Assembly: GCA_937895985.1 (NCBI GenBank) | Contig: CALBKL010000009.1 | Location: forward strand, 1 to 7,116 | Reading direction: 5' to 3' | Length of the DNA: 7,116 nt | DNA from: an uncultured Solobacterium sp. | Lineage (GTDB): Bacteria > Bacillota_I > Bacilli_A > Erysipelotrichales > Erysipelotrichaceae | Part shown: positions 2,006-7,116 of the stretch, one piece after another | How positions within the stretch are numbered: position 1 is the first letter of the stretch | Layout of the letters: each line of letters begins with the position of its first letter | Program-made: the position numbers and the translations under genes | The notes under the pieces: model-generated | Told to the model about the DNA's origin: nothing | Databases searched by the model: none | Seen by the model: only the letters and a program-made list of their open reading frames with translations

Positions 2006-2860
2006 ATGAAAAAAGGACTAGTTCTTGAGGGTGGTGCGATGCGAGGCATCTTTACAGCAGGTGTTATCGATGTGTTAATGGAAAACCATATTACATTTGA
2101 TGGTGCGATTGGTGTATCTGCTGGTGCGTGCTTTGGCGTAAATCTAAAGAGTAAGCAGATTGGTCGTACGTTCCGCTATAACATGAAATACGCAAAGGAT
2201 CCAAGATATGCAAGTGTTCAATCATGGATTAAAACAGGAGACTTCTTCAATGCGGAGTTCTGCTATCATACATTGCCTGAAAAGTTAGACCCAATGGATG
2301 CAGTAACATTCTCTAAAAATCCAATGAAGTTTTATTTAGTCGCAACAGATATTGAAAGTGGTAAACCATATTATTACGATGTTAAGGATATCAATAATGA
2401 ATCATTAGATTTTGTACGTGCTTCTGCGTCAATGCCAGTATTTGCAAGTCCAGTACATATCAATGGACATATTTATCTAGATGGTGGTATCTCTGATTCT
2501 ATCCCTATTAAGAAGTTTCAAGAGATGGGATATGAAAAGAATGTAATTGTCTTAACACAACCAGAGAATTATGTAAAAAAGCCACAGCCAATGATGAGGG
2601 CAATTCGTGCAAAGTATCGTAAATATCCAAACATGGTACGTGATTTAGAATCGCGTCACGAAACCTATAATGAAACAATTGCATATATCAAAGAAGAGGT
2701 TACGAAGAATAACGTATTTGTAATTCAACCAGAAAGAGCATTAAACATTGGTAGAATTGAACATAATCGTACAAGAATTCGTGCAGTCTATGAAGAAGGT
2801 CGTAAAACAGCGATGAAAAGACTAGCAGAATTAAAGATGTTTTTAAGACAGGGTGAATGA
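2006..2860 (+). CDS. Patatin-like phospholipase (acyl hydrolase)
   Basis: This 284-residue protein is a predicted cytoplasmic or membrane-peripheral lipid acyl hydrolase using a Ser-Asp dyad. All patatin landmarks are intact. The glycine-rich oxyanion segment LEGGAMRG spans residues 7-14. The nucleophile elbow GVSAG (36-40) has Ser38, and the catalytic Asp159 is in the LDGG motif, followed by ISDSIPI. The C-terminal part (about 200-280), with NVFVIQPE and a basic helical tail, resembles the extra domain found in bacterial YjjU-like patatins. No signal peptide is visible. The start at 2006 is supported by GAGGTGA (1993-1999), about 6 nt upstream. Length fits the bacterial YjjU-like group. It lies 88 nt after the regulator and about 50 nt before a second hydrolase on the same strand, which suggests related lipid or ester metabolism. 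The fold and active site are clear; the substrate is not, since members cleave phospholipids or other acyl esters. Confidence 0.9.
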   Translation: MKKGLVLEGGAMRGIFTAGVIDVLMENHITFDGAIGVSAGACFGVNLKSKQIGRTFRYNMKYAKDPRYASVQSWIKTGDFFNAEFCYHTLPEKLDPMDAVTFSKNPMKFYLVATDIESGKPYYYDVKDINNESLDFVRASASMPVFASPVHINGHIYLDGGISDSIPIKKFQEMGYEKNVIVLTQPENYVKKPQPMMRAIRAKYRKYPNMVRDLESRHETYNETIAYIKEEVTKNNVFVIQPERALNIGRIEHNRTRIRAVYEEGRKTAMKRLAELKMFLRQGE

Positions 2861-2886
2861 CATCATTTGAAATAGTAATTTATGAT
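2857..2886 (+). promoter_or_regulatory. Possible promoter for the alpha/beta hydrolase gene
   Basis: ATGACA (2857-2862, one mismatch from TTGACA) overlaps the stop codon of the upstream gene. It is followed after 18 nt by TATGAT (2881-2886) and AAAAT. The predicted start lies near 2893, close to the ribosome binding site. Transcription from the upstream gene is also possible because no terminator separates the two. Confidence 0.45.
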
Positions 2887-2912
2887 AAAATAAATACGCT
2901 ATTGGGGGAATG

Positions 2913-3953
2913 ATGAAAATAACAACGGATATGATTCATCGTGATTTACGAAAATACGCAAATGTGGTATTGAACAATCAACCATTACTCAATTCGATTA
3001 CTGCAATTCGAGAGCGTGATAGAAATCTAAAACGTAAGTTTTATGGGAAATGGTTTGGTAAAACAACCCATATGGAAGAACAAATGATTCTAAGAAATGA
3101 TGGTTCTTCTTTGCGTATCTGTATTGTTTATCCAAATCATTTTAGCAAAGAGGAATGTACAGGTCTTTTATGGCTTCATGGTGGTGGATATGGAACAGCA
3201 CTACCTGAAGAGTGCTATCCATATGCAGAACGTTTCCTAACAAATGGAAATGTAGTTATGGTACTACCAGATTATCGCAAGAGCTATGAGGCTCCATACC
3301 CGGCGGCCTTAGAAGATGCTTATCTAACACTCAAGTGGATGAGGGAACATGCATGCAAGTTACATATTAACCCTCACCAACTATTTGTGGGTGGTGAAAG
3401 CGCAGGTGGTGGCTTGGTGGCTGCGTTATCTGCATATGCACGTGATATGAATGAAGTGAAGATTGCATTTCAAATGCCGCTATATCCGATGATTGATGAT
3501 CGCCCATCTAGCGAAAATAAACAAGAAACATTAGCCTGGACGACTTCACAGAAGTACTTCCATTGGCAGCTATATAAACGGAATCTACAGGATGTACCAG
3601 TGTACTGTGCACCTGCAAGATTAAAGGATTTTCGAAATCTACCACCGACCTTTACGGTTGTAGGAACATTAGGACCGTTCCATGAAGAAACGGTAACCTA
3701 TATGAAACACTTGTATAAAGCTGGTGTGACTATCATGTTAAAAGAGTATGAGGGTTGTTTCCACATGTTTGATACATGCTGTCCAGATGCAAAGATATCC
3801 AAAGAACTCATACATCTTGAGCAGAAGGTATTTCAATATGCGCAACAAAACTTCTTTGCAAGACAAGATGAAATCAGTCAAGAAGATATATCTTTTCAAG
3901 AGGATATATTCCGTAATTTCCATGCATACATGGATAGGAAAAATAAATATTAA
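2913..3953 (+). CDS. Alpha/beta hydrolase, HGGG/GESAG esterase family, with altered catalytic acid site
   Basis: This 346-residue protein belongs to the hormone-sensitive-lipase-like (HGGG) branch of alpha/beta hydrolases, which cleave short acyl esters. Numbered from the ATG at 2913, the oxyanion motif HGGG is at 89-92 and the nucleophile elbow GESAG has Ser163. The conserved DYR..YEAPYPAALEDAY segment lies between them, and the C-terminal histidine is His284 in GCFHMFD. The catalytic acid is normally Asp (or Glu) in a G-x-x-D-P-[LF]-x-x-E motif. Here the motif reads GTLGPFHEE and the acid position is Gly254, encoded by GGA at 3672-3674. The protein may therefore be inactive, weak, or may use the nearby glutamates. 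There are two adjacent ATGs, at 2910 and 2913. GGGGG (2904-2908) is the only ribosome binding site and is better spaced for 2913. About 60 residues follow His284, more than I expect for the family, and they include a short internal duplication. No signal peptide is seen. Confidence 0.82.
   Translation: MKITTDMIHRDLRKYANVVLNNQPLLNSITAIRERDRNLKRKFYGKWFGKTTHMEEQMILRNDGSSLRICIVYPNHFSKEECTGLLWLHGGGYGTALPEECYPYAERFLTNGNVVMVLPDYRKSYEAPYPAALEDAYLTLKWMREHACKLHINPHQLFVGGESAGGGLVAALSAYARDMNEVKIAFQMPLYPMIDDRPSSENKQETLAWTTSQKYFHWQLYKRNLQDVPVYCAPARLKDFRNLPPTFTVVGTLGPFHEETVTYMKHLYKAGVTIMLKEYEGCFHMFDTCCPDAKISKELIHLEQKVFQYAQQNFFARQDEISQEDISFQEDIFRNFHAYMDRKNKY
3879..3914 (+). repeat. 18-bp imperfect tandem duplication inside the hydrolase C-terminus
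   Basis: Two adjacent 18-bp units (3879-3896 and 3897-3914) match at 13 positions and share a CAAGA[AG]GATATAT core. They keep the reading frame and encode QEDISF followed by QEDIFR. This lies in the C-terminal tail beyond the catalytic domain. It could equally be chance similarity in a short helical tail. Confidence 0.4.
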
Positions 3954-3957
3954 AGTA

Positions 3958-3990
3958 AAGCCCGAGATGTTTATCCCGAGCTTATTTTTT
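3958..3990. terminator. Bidirectional terminator hairpin between convergent genes
   Basis: Arms 3958-3968 (AAGCCCGAGAT) and 3973-3983 (ATCCCGAGCTT) flank a 4-nt loop. Read as plus-strand RNA, the 11-bp stem has two A-C mismatches but is followed by a strong U tract (ATTTTTT, 3984-3990). Read as minus-strand RNA, the same two positions become G-U wobbles, so the stem is continuous, but the following U tract is interrupted (TTTACTTTAAT). It lies 5 nt after the plus-strand stop and just past the minus-strand stop, so it can serve both genes. Confidence 0.7.
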
Positions 3991-4456
3991 ATAGTTGTTC
4001 TGCTTGTACTTGAATGAGATTCTGTAGTTGCATACGATACAATAATAAGTCATCCTCAAGAGGATTTAATACAGCTGCCGCAACCTTTGTGTTTAGATTT
4101 AGGAAATCTAATATATCTTGTTTTGTGACGATGTAGATATGTTCATCTTTTTGTAGTGTTGGTTTAAATTTTTGTAGGCCTTCCAATGTAGAAAATACAG
4201 GAAGATACTTTTCACCATCAGTTGCCTGCATTAAATCAACACGGTCAATATTAGATGCTTGAATACTGTCATTTTTGATTGCGTCTTCTTTTGGATAGAA
4301 GGCAACATAGAAACGACGGTCACCTGCCATATAGAGTGTTAACTCTTCTAGTATCTTTTGCATACCTTCTTCACTAAGAGGTGCTTTGCGATCTAAGAGT
4401 AGGCTTTCTAGTTTTGTATCTATCGTTGTATCAGTTAATGAATTAAATTTTTGCAT
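3989..4456 (-). CDS. SseB-like protein
   Basis: This 155-residue soluble protein has features of the SseB N-terminal domain family, whose molecular role in most bacteria is unknown. Visible features are a helical N-terminal third (residues 1-43) and a strand-rich core starting at RRFYVAFYPKED (47-58). DGEKYLPVFSTLEGLQKF (80-97) is the family hallmark, with a polar DGE turn, PVFS and a following helix. ILDFLNLN (115-122) and VLNPLEDDLLL (129-139) match the characteristic asparagine-proline segment near the domain end. The frame is open further upstream to 4498, but I chose the ATG at 4456 because GTGAGGA (4461-4467, minus strand) is well placed for it. The longer form would overlap the divergent yaaA start and lacks a ribosome binding site. 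No signal peptide or membrane segment is seen. It is convergent with the hydrolase and divergent from yaaA, so it is transcribed alone. The family assignment rests on motif memory. Confidence 0.7.
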   Translation of the reverse strand: MQKFNSLTDTTIDTKLESLLLDRKAPLSEEGMQKILEELTLYMAGDRRFYVAFYPKEDAIKNDSIQASNIDRVDLMQATDGEKYLPVFSTLEGLQKFKPTLQKDEHIYIVTKQDILDFLNLNTKVAAAVLNPLEDDLLLYRMQLQNLIQVQAEQL

Positions 4457-4480
4457 GTAATCCTCACCATTTCTGCATTT

Positions 4481-4490
4481 ATTATATAAT
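4481..4490. promoter_or_regulatory. Palindromic -10 element shared by the divergent sseB-like and yaaA genes
   Basis: The perfect palindrome ATTATATAAT reads TATAAT on both strands (4485-4490 plus, 4481-4486 minus). On the plus strand the expected start site, 6-7 nt downstream, falls at about 4497, the A of the yaaA ATG. On the minus strand it falls near 4474, leaving a leader of about 18 nt with the sseB-like ribosome binding site. I see no good -35 box for either direction at 16-18 nt spacing, so this could also be a melting region or chance AT sequence. Confidence 0.45.
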
Positions 4491-4496
4491 AGGAAC

Positions 4497-5225
4497 ATGA
4501 AAATAATATTCTCTCCAACAAAAAAGATGATTCAAGATGAAGATTTAGCCCCAAAAACAACACCAGTTTTTCTTTCGAAGACAGAAACATTACTAGAAAA
4601 ACTGCGTGGAATGAGTTCTGAACAACTACAGCGTATGTACCGTTGTAACGATAAAATCTTAGCTGAAAATATGAAACGGATTGAAACGATGAACTTACAT
4701 GAGAATCTTTCACCTGCACTATTTAGCTATAGTGGTCTTGCGTTTCAGCATTTATCTGCGACTTCTCTATGTCAGGATGAACTAGACTATCTGCAAGAGC
4801 ACTTCCGCATTCTTTCTGGTTTTTATGGTGTATTAAAGCCAATGGATGGTATTACACCATATCGTTTGGAAATGTTATCAGTATTTCCGGATGGCAGTAA
4901 CTTATATGACTATTGGAATGATGCGCTTTATCGTGAGCTCAATGACAATATGATTATCAATCTTGCGTCCGAAGAGTATTCACGTTGTATTAAAGATTAT
5001 CTTCAAGAAAATGATCGCATGATCAATATTATCTTTGGCGAATTCAAGAATGGAAAGCTAATTACAAAGGCGACCAAGGCAAAGATGGCACGTGGAGATA
5101 TGATTTGGTATATGGCACAAAATCACATCACTGATCCTGAAGACATTAAGAAATTTAATGAACATTATTACTATGATGCTGAACTTTCTGATGATACACA
5201 CTTTGTATTTATTACACAGGAGTAA
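4497..5225 (+). CDS. yaaA: YaaA family peroxide stress protein (UPF0246)
   Basis: This is a 242-residue cytoplasmic protein of the YaaA family; the E. coli member is about 258 residues. In E. coli, YaaA is induced by peroxide and lowers free intracellular iron, limiting Fenton damage; the mechanism is not settled. The match runs the whole length. The N-terminus MKIIFSPTKKM resembles the family start MLILISPAKT. YSGLAFQHL corresponds to the FKGDVYTGL region. RILSGFYGVLKPMDGITPYRLEM (about residues 104-126, cited as a landmark) is the most conserved block. INLASEEY and KMARGDMIWYM follow, and the end FNEHYYYDAELSDDTHFVF matches the family C-terminus. The family-typical first residues support the ATG at 4497, yet the only ribosome binding site is a short AGGA 2 nt before it. 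A TATAAT at 4485-4490 implies a start site on the ATG itself, so translation may be leaderless. The GDPD gene follows after 6 nt and is probably co-transcribed. Confidence 0.92.
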   Translation: MKIIFSPTKKMIQDEDLAPKTTPVFLSKTETLLEKLRGMSSEQLQRMYRCNDKILAENMKRIETMNLHENLSPALFSYSGLAFQHLSATSLCQDELDYLQEHFRILSGFYGVLKPMDGITPYRLEMLSVFPDGSNLYDYWNDALYRELNDNMIINLASEEYSRCIKDYLQENDRMINIIFGEFKNGKLITKATKAKMARGDMIWYMAQNHITDPEDIKKFNEHYYYDAELSDDTHFVFITQE

Positions 5226-5231
5226 GATACA

Positions 5232-6095
5232 ATGATTGGTATGATTATCGTAATCAGTATTTGTTTACTCTATCTATGGATGATTCATCCCCAGAATCTT
5301 AATGATGAAAAGTGGGAAGGATTTCGTCATCACTATTATGCTCACCGTGGTTTACATGATATACAAAGGAATATTCCAGAGAATTCAATGGCTGCTTTTT
5401 TGAAAGCAGTAGAGAATGGTTATGGTATTGAGCTAGATATGCAACTAACCAAAGATGGTGTACCTGTTATTTTTCACGATGGAAAGACTGGTAGATTATT
5501 ACGTGATGAAAATGGTGCAGTCATTAATACAGTACTCACAGAACTACCACTAGAAGAATTACAGAGATATCACTTACTAACAAGTAAAGAGAAGGTTCCT
5601 CTGTTTGAAGATGTATTAAAGTTGGTTGATGGAAAAGTACCTTTGATTGTGGAGTTGAAGGTTGCGAATTCATCGACGGATATCAATGCATTATGTAGTA
5701 AGGCAGATTGGTTATTACAAAAATATCGTGGTTTCTATTGTATAGAGTCTTTTCATCCAGCTTGTGTAAACTGGTATCGTAAGAATCGTCCAGAGATTAT
5801 TCGTGGACAACTTGCAGAATATCCAAATACGCAAGCAAAAGGAAAGATGTTTATAGCGATGAGGGTTATGCAGTATCTTTTAACAAACTTTATCACGCGA
5901 CCAAACTTTATTGCGTATAACCATCACAATCGCCATAACCTTTCACGCATGTTGTGTCATCGCTTATTTAAAAATCCAGCGATTGCTTGGACAATCCGTT
6001 CCAAGCAGGAGTTAGAAGATAATCATAAGTACTTTGATTACTTTATTTTTGAACACTTTATACCAAATGTTGAATCAAGTTCCGAAGAACAGTAA
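5232..6095 (+). CDS. Membrane-anchored glycerophosphodiester phosphodiesterase
   Basis: This 287-residue enzyme should hydrolyse glycerophosphodiesters, the deacylated headgroups of phospholipids, to sn-glycerol-3-phosphate and an alcohol, with a divalent metal. The N-terminus has one hydrophobic segment (about residues 3-18) with no clear cleavage site, so it is probably a membrane anchor. The GDPD domain follows at once. AHRG (37-40) has His38 and Arg39, followed by PENS.AAF. ELD (67-69) supplies metal ligands Glu67 and Asp69, and FHDGK holds His82. VELKV further on matches the conserved strand bearing a later acidic ligand. The end of the barrel shows AWTIRSKQELE, the typical W-T-[VI]-[NR] motif. 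All key residues are present, so activity is likely. AGGAG (5218-5222), inside the end of yaaA, sits 9 nt before the ATG, and only 6 nt separate the genes, suggesting one operon with coupled translation. The alcohol specificity is unknown. A hairpin terminator overlaps its 3' end. Confidence 0.93.
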   Translation: MIGMIIVISICLLYLWMIHPQNLNDEKWEGFRHHYYAHRGLHDIQRNIPENSMAAFLKAVENGYGIELDMQLTKDGVPVIFHDGKTGRLLRDENGAVINTVLTELPLEELQRYHLLTSKEKVPLFEDVLKLVDGKVPLIVELKVANSSTDINALCSKADWLLQKYRGFYCIESFHPACVNWYRKNRPEIIRGQLAEYPNTQAKGKMFIAMRVMQYLLTNFITRPNFIAYNHHNRHNLSRMLCHRLFKNPAIAWTIRSKQELEDNHKYFDYFIFEHFIPNVESSSEEQ

Positions 6096-6114
6096 ATGTT
6101 TCGGAACTTTTCAT
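6077..6114 (+). terminator. Intrinsic terminator of the yaaA-GDPD operon, overlapping the stop codon
   Basis: Perfect 10-bp arms AAGTTCCGAA (6077-6086) and TTCGGAACTT (6100-6109) enclose a 13-nt loop, with T-rich sequence (TTTTCATTT) starting within the 3' arm. The left arm and loop are inside the coding region, and the stop codon (6093-6095) lies in the loop. A ribosome finishing translation would cover the left arm. Confidence 0.8.
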
Positions 6115-6147
6115 TTGAACAAGGTTTTGAATAGAGAATAATATGAT
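6115..6147 (+). promoter_or_regulatory. Possible promoter for the MarR-radical SAM fusion gene
   Basis: TATGAT (6142-6147) followed by AAAAT resembles the -10 boxes at 1973 and 2881. TTGAAC (6115-6120) is the best -35 match but is 21 nt away. It would be 16-18 nt from the weaker overlapping -10 candidates AATAAT or TAATAT (6137-6144). A promoter is needed here because a terminator lies just upstream. Confidence 0.4.
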
Positions 6148-6179
6148 AAAATACTAACTATAAGGAGCTCCAATCCGGA

Positions 6180-7116
6180 ATGAGTGATACGAGTAATTTT
6201 ATTTTGAATTTATCGGTATTGTTTCGCAATACACAAAAATATTTTGATAAGATGCTGGCGCCATATGATATTGGTTCCGGCCAATTAACATTTTTATTGA
6301 TTATCAATGAGAATGAAGGTATTACAATGCAGGATGTTACACGTATCAGTGAGGTGGATAAGGGTACCACAACAAAGAGTATTCAACGTCTTATTGAGCA
6401 GGGGTATGTAAGTGCAGTACAAGACGAAAAAGACCATCGTATGAAGCATTTACATACGACTGATAAAGCCTCCACAATGATGACAGCTGTATATGATTTC
6501 CGTAATCAATGTCGTGCAGCGCTAGCGACTGGTGTTGATTTCGACCAGTTTGAAGAGATGCTAAACGTTGCCTGTGAAAACTCTCGACATATTTTAACGA
6601 GTGAGCCGACTGCGTTCCATACGCTAAAAATTGGTGCTCTAAAAAAGACAACAATTACGGATTACCCTGGAAAAGTCGCAGCGACAATTTATACGGCTGG
6701 ATGTAATATGAAGTGTCCATTCTGTAATCAGAAAGATCTTGTGTTTATTCCTGAGAAATATCGCTATATCGCACCGGAGGAAATTCTTACATACCTCAAC
6801 GAGCGTAGCGGTTTGTTGGATGGTGTGGTTATCAGTGGTGGTGAGCCTTTATTACAAGAGGAGCTCATTCCATTTATTCGTCAGATTAAAGAACTTGGCT
6901 ATGCAGTGAAGTTAGATACGAATGGCACAAACAACGAGAAGTTAGGAATATTATTGGAAGAAGGCTTGTTGGATTTTGTGTCACTTGATATGAAGAATAG
7001 CGCCGATAAGTATCCATTAACCTGTGGTCTAAAATCAGACGTAGAATATAAGCATCCGATTACAGAAAGCGTAAGCTTACTGCAAGAATATAAAGTGGAA
7101 CATGAATTTAAAACAA
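6180..7116 (+). CDS. MarR-type DNA-binding domain fused to NrdG-like radical SAM activase, cut by window edge
   Basis: One open frame of 312 codons runs from the ATG at 6180 to the right edge. Residues 1-140 form a MarR-type winged helix protein: helical N-terminus, GSGQLTFLLIINENEGIT, a recognition region near VDKGTTTKSIQRLIEQG, and the wing DEKDHRMKHLHTTDKA, close to the family's D.xD.R...LT.KG. From about residue 149 the sequence becomes a radical SAM protein like the anaerobic ribonucleotide reductase activating protein (NrdG2 type). It has KIGALKKTTITDYPGK and the iron-sulfur motif CNMKCPFC (Cys175, Cys179, Cys182). The SAM-contacting SGGEPLL (Gly220-Gly221-Glu222) and LDTNGTN follow. 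Such enzymes use SAM to place a glycyl radical on their partner, usually NrdD. I found no stop, frameshift or plausible internal start with a ribosome binding site between the domains, so this is a true fusion. The ribosome binding site AAGGAG (6162-6167) is 12 nt from the ATG, rather far. The C-terminus and any nrdD neighbour are outside the window. Confidence 0.88.
   Translation, partial: MSDTSNFILNLSVLFRNTQKYFDKMLAPYDIGSGQLTFLLIINENEGITMQDVTRISEVDKGTTTKSIQRLIEQGYVSAVQDEKDHRMKHLHTTDKASTMMTAVYDFRNQCRAALATGVDFDQFEEMLNVACENSRHILTSEPTAFHTLKIGALKKTTITDYPGKVAATIYTAGCNMKCPFCNQKDLVFIPEKYRYIAPEEILTYLNERSGLLDGVVISGGEPLLQEELIPFIRQIKELGYAVKLDTNGTNNEKLGILLEEGLLDFVSLDMKNSADKYPLTCGLKSDVEYKHPITESVSLLQEYKVEHEFKT

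Follow-up and report, generated by a model that had tools for sequence, protein, structure and literature searches.

The window analysed here is a stretch of 7,116 nucleotides from an uncultured Solobacterium sp. (Erysipelotrichaceae; contig CALBKL010000009.1, forward strand) that ends inside a gene joining a MarR-type regulator to an NrdG2-type radical SAM activase. At positions 1-1917 a KdgT-type permease gene is divergent from the gene of a PucR/CdaR-like regulator, which is probably the local regulator of the permease. Positions 2006-6095 encode a patatin-like phospholipase with DUF6363, an alpha/beta hydrolase, an SseB-domain protein, YaaA and a GDPD-family protein. For what lies beyond the window we use a related genome, G101, as a stand-in: window bases 3093-7116 are 88.5% identical to it, its fusion is 95% identical, and YaaA-like and GDPD-like frames likewise lie ahead of that fusion. 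What we say of the window's nrdD neighbour is drawn from G101. The features of the fusion gene, with the basis for each, are as follows.

6096..6179, + strand: intergenic region ahead of the fusion, without the candidate operator TAGTTG-N6-CAACTA (upstream motif scan)
6162..6167, + strand: ribosome binding site AAGGAG, with the ATG 12 bases downstream (sequence)
6180..7116, + strand: MarR-NrdG2 fusion gene, cut by the window boundary at residue 312 of about 383 (open frame; Pfam; NCBIfam; twin protein P0002)
6273..6440, + strand: MarR winged-helix core, residues 32-87 (PF12802; P0002 model against 3bpx_B)
6357..6398, + strand: presumed recognition helix, residues 60-73, DKGTTTKSIQRLIE (D60 and K61 unchanged in all 80 rows of the alignment)
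6423..6461, + strand: wing, residues 82-94, DEKDHRMKHLHTT (D85 and R87 unchanged in all 80 rows of the alignment)
6597..6629, + strand: interdomain linker, residues 140-150 (modelled as a lower-confidence coil with well predicted domains on either side)
6630..7116, + strand: NrdG2-type radical SAM domain, visible residues 151-312 (TIGR02495; nearest folds 3c8f and 3cb8)
6702..6725, + strand: CX3CX2C cluster motif, residues 175-182 (C175, C179, C182; sequence)
6837..6848, + strand: GGEP motif, residues 220-223 (sequence)

A single ATG-initiated frame runs from 6180 to 7116 and is free of stops up to the window end, giving 312 residues. The complete protein has 383 amino acids, judged from P0002, a near twin that is 97% identical to the window protein. 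Pfam finds MarR_2 (PF12802) at residues 32-87 (41.3 bits, cut-off 27) and Radical_SAM at residues 170-278 (60.1 bits, cut-off 29.5), and the NCBIfam model for NrdG2 (TIGR02495) matches residues 151-312 with 162.8 bits against an equivalog cut-off of 131; the full-length G101 protein reaches 195.6 bits. An initial annotation of this DNA had read a MarR domain and an NrdG-like activase in one frame, and the open frame and both profile libraries confirm this, with the CX3CX2C and GGEP motifs at the residues it gave and the MarR winged helix as a whole covering residues ~1-140. It had also remarked that ATGs near the junction have no properly spaced ribosome binding site. By eye we agree for all the in-frame ATGs between 6400 and 6720 (6441, 6477, 6480, 6558 and 6708), the true start being served by AAGGAG. 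Pfam reports neither a Zn ribbon nor an ATP cone in the window protein (nine matches) or in the full G101 protein (eight matches), and the window protein scores below the cut-off of the MarR-family profile for BilQ (NF045593).

The AlphaFold2 model, built from an 80-row alignment (P0002 and 79 loci), is a single chain with a mean pLDDT of 91.9 and a pTM of 0.67. Its MarR half resembles 3bpx and 3s2w (target TM 0.90 for the P0002 model against 3bpx_B) and its other half resembles pyruvate formate-lyase activase (3c8f, 3cb8). We take residues 60-73 to be the recognition helix on the basis of the MarR fold. D60, K61, D85 and R87, which are invariant across the 80 rows, are presumably DNA contacts, as is usual in the MarR family. 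Among the three cluster cysteines C179 alone is invariant.

How widespread is this arrangement? A homologue search at E <= 0.001 matched 6335 proteins, and the domain content of 120 listed matches was taken from it. In 119 of these 120, MarR and Radical_SAM occur together in proteins of 351-407 amino acids, the exception being a 209-residue piece (P0035); the arrangement is therefore neither chance nor a frameshift, and the domain order is conserved across a clade. MarR and NrdG2 activase in one polypeptide are a real fusion. Within the order of genome G001 (157 genomes) a match across both domains is present in 65. One genome, G149, has the MarR piece alone at a contig end (residues 3-102, 69% identical), and the remaining genomes have NrdG2 by itself or neither form; fused and unfused NrdG2 are both present in G166, G169, G175 and G176. 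Class-wide, 104 of 395 genomes matched at E <= 1e-35, 23 with both domains and 81 with the activase only. We read 80 fusion loci from 80 genomes, namely the 65 from the order and 15 others, and both domains share one frame in all of them. The carriers include the named isolates Sharpea and Eggerthia.

The origin of the fusion is compatible with more than one history. A tree of the radical SAM domain (57 fused rows with an intact partner and 14 unfused) requires three changes between the forms in its best version, or one if starred branches alone are counted, and this is compatible with one origin and likewise with more than one. A standalone MarR ancestor of the fused domain was sought and rejected as a candidate, with just 15 weak matches at no more than 30% identity in nine of 11 non-fusion genomes searched. 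In viral contigs the whole fusion was not matched; there were 11 weak matches, every one to the radical SAM part. The titles and opening parts of abstracts in our literature search, in which subscription journals and preprints are thinly covered, contained no report of a MarR-NrdG fusion or of a dead NrdD acting as a regulator.

The initial annotation expected nrdD downstream. No nrdD was found inside the window, which ends before the neighbouring gene, and in the relatives an NrdD-like gene lies directly next to the fusion in 77 of the 80 loci. In G034 it is one gene further away, and two loci have no NrdD neighbour, G176 (L105) and G166 (L107). The G176 fusion has GGEA where GGEP is expected, and each of these two genomes retains an unfused NrdG2 with NrdD elsewhere. 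By partner, the 80 loci divide into 57 that are intact, 19 that we call dead, two that are cut by contig ends and two that are partnerless. The intact partners have an NrdD frame of 784 to 851 amino acids with an SCCR-type cysteine pair, zinc cysteines and a glycyl loop, and with a glutaredoxin-like domain fused at the C-terminus; the SCCR-type pair and the zinc cysteines are conserved in 57/57.

The dead partners (including those of G101 and L001) are shorter, at 381 to 684 amino acids. All 19 have lost both cysteines of the SCCR-type pair as well as the fused glutaredoxin domain, 18 have lost cysteine 175, and the zinc/glycyl region is absent in nine and retained in 10, so that across the 80 loci the glycyl-radical loop is found in the 57 intact and 10 dead partners. 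In the G101 partner (L104) the SCCR-type cysteines are replaced and the zinc site and glycyl loop are absent; its model nonetheless matches the NrdD structures 8p2c and 4coj. A separate glutaredoxin-like piece, a 76-residue frame (L104:3231-3461), overlaps the end of this dead nrdD; its thioredoxin-type match is weak and stays under the Pfam cut-off. In the Thermotoga maritima NrdD, replacing one or the other cysteine of the SCCR motif by alanine is reported to abolish activity (PMC4493059), and for this reason the NrdD that adjoins the fusion in the dead-partner lineages is very unlikely to be a working ribonucleotide reductase (RNR).

What these proteins have kept is the ATP cone. PF03477 scores over its cut-off in the G101 partner, Pfam found a cone in 7/7 of the dead partners scanned (of 19), and in the 381-residue partner the cone is detected and the NRDD domain no longer is. 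At 22 cone positions that are invariant in the 57 intact partners the dead ones retain 414 of 418 letters, compared with 51-66% where the linker, barrel and zinc/glycyl regions are invariant (gaps set aside). Mean identity to the intact consensus tells the same story: among intact partners it is 0.76 for the cone versus 0.79-0.91 for other regions, and among dead ones 0.64 versus 0.37-0.53. The cone is the least conserved region of the intact partners and the most conserved of the dead ones. On the fusion tree there are at least five changes of partner state (a quick method, counted without direction, with P0002 scored as dead on the strength of G101). For example, Eggerthia, with a dead partner, groups with two Sharpea that have intact ones (SH-aLRT 100). 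With at least five such changes and the cone kept, catalysis seems to have been lost repeatedly without loss of the cone.

The promoters provide a second line of evidence. The palindrome TAGTTG-N6-CAACTA, with at most two of its 12 fixed bases differing, is found ahead of the fusion gene at 51 of the 56 intact loci considered (the 57th begins at a contig end and was dropped), and in 4/19 dead, 0/2 partnerless and 2/2 cut loci. Shuffled sequence reaches this level in 0.55% of cases. In the window the fusion promoter has no such site, the best match within 150 bases upstream having five of the 12 bases wrong, and the G101 promoter is likewise without one.

A second NrdD was found in at least 52 of the 80 fusion genomes (among the best matches listed) and its upstream region was read; none was found in G171. 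The palindrome precedes this second nrdD with at most one mismatch in 39/52. In the dead-partner genomes it does so in 16/16, 15 of them perfect, and in the intact-partner genomes in 23/36 (27/36 at up to two mismatches). A near match is missing in nine of the 36, one of which (G163) has a variant with the GTTG-N6-CAAC core intact. As a control we took 49 nrdD orthologues (54-81% identity to the G101 gene) from genomes without the whole fusion, and found the palindrome at one mismatch or fewer in two: G131 (L332), in which no piece of the fusion was detected, and G149 (L333; also L122), the genome with the MarR piece at a contig end. It is absent from all 24 controls of 70-75% identity, and therefore follows the fusion rather than nrdD as such. 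An earlier control of 20 hand-picked nrdD genes (0/20 at one mismatch, two at two) was discarded because it contained distant NrdD types.

In G101 the palindrome ends 20 bases ahead of a 734-residue NrdD with an ATP cone and a glycyl-radical domain, and in G175 and G169, which have a dead partner and an unfused NrdG2-NrdD operon, AGGTTGGATTTCCAACCA lies about 50 bases before that nrdD. Among 30 nrdD promoters drawn, 20 have the centre of the palindrome 29-35 bases beyond the point where the predicted -10 element begins, the promoter predictions being simple consensus fits; such a position suits repression.

A scan of 157 whole genomes for the exact form TAGTTGRANNNYCAACTA found 47 copies, spread over 42 genomes. 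The fusion genomes account for 40 sites, in 35 of 65, and all 40 belong to RNR or fusion genes: the gene downstream is the fusion for 19 of them, a second nrdD for another 19 and a class I RNR alpha for two. An exact site is absent from the other 30 fusion genomes. In the non-fusion genomes there are seven sites in 7/92, of which one (G131) precedes nrdD, and no RNR gene was found within the roughly 4-5 kb read around the other six. The two class I RNR alpha genes score over the NF009028 cut-off, and the cases in G134 and G044 came from the operator search itself. Six further fusion genomes were checked at this gene and one, G038, has the palindrome (the G017 frame is unconfirmed). It was not found at class I RNR alpha in five non-fusion pieces (two confirmed as class I), or near the start of any of seven separately placed nrdG genes. 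A candidate covariation between residue 64 of the recognition helix and the inner bases of the operator (strong in raw counts, 22/5 versus 4/26) fails on the tree, and is not used here because no more than one or two pairs on the tree are independent and these do not run in the direction expected.

These observations bear on the role suggested in the initial annotation, namely that the fusion ties expression of an RNR to its activation. A part in RNR regulation fits the operator evidence. The coupling to activation of the same RNR is not supported for the window's lineage: the neighbouring NrdD of G101 is without its catalytic cysteine pair, zinc site and glycyl loop, the fusion promoter has no operator in either G101 or the window, and the G101 operator precedes a separate NrdD in a genome that has its own canonical NrdG.

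We propose the following mechanism. A class III RNR activase of the NrdG2 type, joined to a MarR DNA-binding domain, would make a transcription regulator, most likely a repressor of RNR genes. The MarR dimer would bind TAGTTG-N6-CAACTA at RNR promoters, the activase half would dock on the partner NrdD, as activase/reductase pairs normally do, and the ATP cone of NrdD would report the ATP/dATP state to the DNA-binding half. Since the activase half would retain the contact that activases are known to make with NrdD, an NrdD bearing an ATP cone could serve as the sensor for the MarR domain. Where the partner is intact, one complex would both produce dNTPs and regulate RNR genes, its own included, and a fusion beside a working-looking partner would be activator and regulator at once. 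With a dead partner only the control would remain, and the pair would act in trans on the main nrdD, filling the place held elsewhere by NrdR. We infer operator binding by this MarR domain, repression, docking and nucleotide sensing from sequence comparison, and our confidence differs between the parts of the proposal. That the fusion family is tied to the regulation of RNR genes is quite likely. That, in the window's lineage and several others, it is an NrdR-like regulator built from an activase with a dead RNR as the nucleotide sensor is somewhat probable. The widest version, in which the reductase and activase of a class III RNR were turned several times into a transcription regulator, with a MarR-activase repressor and a pseudoenzyme nucleotide sensor controlling the working RNR genes, is in our judgement evenly balanced.

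The alternative that fares best concerns the signal. The iron-sulfur cluster, SAM or oxygen may be what is sensed, with the cluster state of the activase switching DNA binding. The cluster motif is retained in 78/80 fusions, including 7/9 whose partner is without the glycyl loop, and since all three cluster cysteines are present in 17 of the 19 fusions at dead-partner loci the radical SAM half may still do chemistry. However, the fusions of G031 and G051 (L173, L174) have lost cluster cysteines, yet their MarR contact residues and the nrdD operator remain, and each is apparently a radical SAM enzyme turned pure regulator; moreover, the preserved part of the dead partners is the ATP cone, which points to nucleotides. 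We regard a cluster, SAM or oxygen signal as unlikely and the cone of the dead NrdD as the better-supported sensor, and the two kinds of signal could act together. One group of the dead NrdD (L167-L172, L175, L110, L112 and L121) is without the cysteine pair and has the zinc cysteines and the glycyl loop. The fused activase could still place a radical on these, perhaps as an oxygen sensor.

Could the fusion be mainly an autoregulated activase? The MarR domain would then tune its own operon, the operators at the second nrdD would be incidental or serve co-expression, and in dead-partner lineages the activase would serve the second NrdD in trans. The palindrome that most intact loci have before the fusion gene and the cluster motif kept in 17 of 19 dead-partner fusions speak for this. 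But a canonical NrdG scores over its family cut-off in all 16 dead-partner genomes with a second NrdD (G101 among them), so the fusion is not needed as the activase of that NrdD. The distribution of operators in the dead-partner genomes, 4/19 at the fusion's own promoter against 16/16 at nrdD, is also contrary to it, as are the two fusions that have lost cluster cysteines and still have the DNA-contact residues. We consider this reading improbable.

Alternatively, a different transcription factor binds the operator and the fused MarR domain has another DNA target or none. Relatives without the fusion do have related palindromes: a GTTG-N6-CAAC core is present at 10 of the 49 control nrdD genes, nine of which read GTTGC-N4-GCAAC. 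The GTTGC-N4-GCAAC loci are L270-L274, L269 and L362-L364 (G147, G049, G047, G040, G148, G035, G109, G111 and G091); the NrdD2 gene of G049 (L116) is preceded by one too, and G147, G148 and G047 have the exact 16-base copy ahead of nrdD and nowhere else. The presence of these sites at non-fusion nrdD genes therefore argues for another RNR regulator with similar half-sites in the relatives, and this regulator might act in fusion genomes too. G131, with the operator and no detected fusion, is a further case, as is the non-fusion genome G065, where a standalone 150-residue MarR gene (L203:2548-2997; PF12802 over its cut-off) has an exact operator 49 bases upstream. Nevertheless, the operator at orthologous nrdD genes tracks the fusion (39/52 versus 2/49), most intact loci have it ahead of the fusion gene itself, and the presumed DNA contacts of the MarR half are invariant over the 80 rows. 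An operator at the protein's own promoter is usual for MarR proteins. We find this reading decidedly improbable.

The dead partners themselves could be functionless, decaying pseudogenes; they are shorter, diverged and without catalytic residues. Yet they are open frames, and in four close pairs with a usable dS the dN/dS ratio is 0.06-0.15 for the whole gene and 0.03-0.04 for the ATP cone. Some of these values are from NG86 rather than YN00, those of L104-L001 and L141-L145 are rough because dS exceeds 1.5 in both pairs, and for two further pairs dS was not computable for the cone or the whole gene. The near-complete retention of the invariant cone letters despite repeated changes of partner state is likewise against decay. 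Our computations show the dead partners to be maintained under purifying selection with the cone preserved, as judged from these ratios, and we think it very improbable that they are mere remnants. Finally, an internal start giving two proteins, or an assembly error, can be dismissed given the lack, by eye, of a spaced internal ribosome site and the single frame seen across every one of the 80 loci read, each from a different genome, and in 119 of the 120 proteins listed.

The genomes that carry the fusion belong to an order in which NrdR (TIGR00244) was found over its cut-off in 0/157 genomes, from assemblies of unstated completeness; the same search was positive in 9 of 14 control genomes. 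Weaker matches occur in 36/157 genomes, nearly all within long frames, and are probably the ATP cones of reductases. NrdR was likewise not found in the genomes with GTTGC-N4-GCAAC. The loss of NrdR as a mark of the fusion was considered and ruled out, as NrdR is missing across the order with or without the fusion.

If our proposal is true, the control of RNR genes by an ATP cone has been reinvented from the enzyme itself, in an order without detectable NrdR, and the fusion offers a testable answer to how such bacteria could adjust RNR expression to the supply of dNTPs. An essential enzyme complex would then also have become a transcription regulator more than once. The stages coexist: an apparently working partner, a dead one with or without the glycyl loop, a cluster motif lost and a partner gone. 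Together, the comparisons suggest a group of gut bacteria in which the fused protein controls RNR genes, often together with a dead RNR copy.

The closest functional parallel is NrdR, which has been described as the universal repressor of bacterial RNR genes (PMC12051234), a repressor with an ATP cone whose boxes are reported to lie upstream of, or to overlap, transcription starts (PMC9110341, PMC12051234, PMC12176259). The fusion system resembles it in its apparent RNR-specific regulation in trans and in having an ATP cone as the proposed sensor. It differs in that the fusion has no Zn ribbon and would use a MarR domain for DNA binding, in that its cone is on a separate (pseudo)reductase, and in that its candidate operator is a single palindrome and not a pair of NrdR boxes. 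Compared with NrdG2 (TIGR02495), the activase half scores over the family cut-off, has the CX3CX2C motif and usually neighbours nrdD; the fusion differs in its N-terminal MarR domain and, in the dead-partner lineages, in an adjacent NrdD that is very unlikely to be a working RNR, the G101 neighbour being without a glycyl loop. With MarR regulators (BilQ, 3s2w, 5eri) it shares the winged helix, conserved helix and wing residues and, in most intact-partner loci but few dead-partner ones, a palindromic operator at its own promoter with likely autoregulation, whereas here a radical SAM domain is fused and RNR genes are the putative targets. The partner is homologous to class III NrdD (that of T. 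maritima with its SCCR motif, that of P. copri with its cone); the dead partners, in contrast, are without SCCR-type cysteines and the fused glutaredoxin domain, and 9/19 are without the zinc and glycyl-radical region. PutA, BirA and NadR are examples of enzymes that also act as transcription regulators, with a DNA-binding and an enzymatic half in one protein. What sets the present system apart from these is that the partner enzyme repeatedly loses catalysis, as it seems, and keeps its nucleotide-binding domain.
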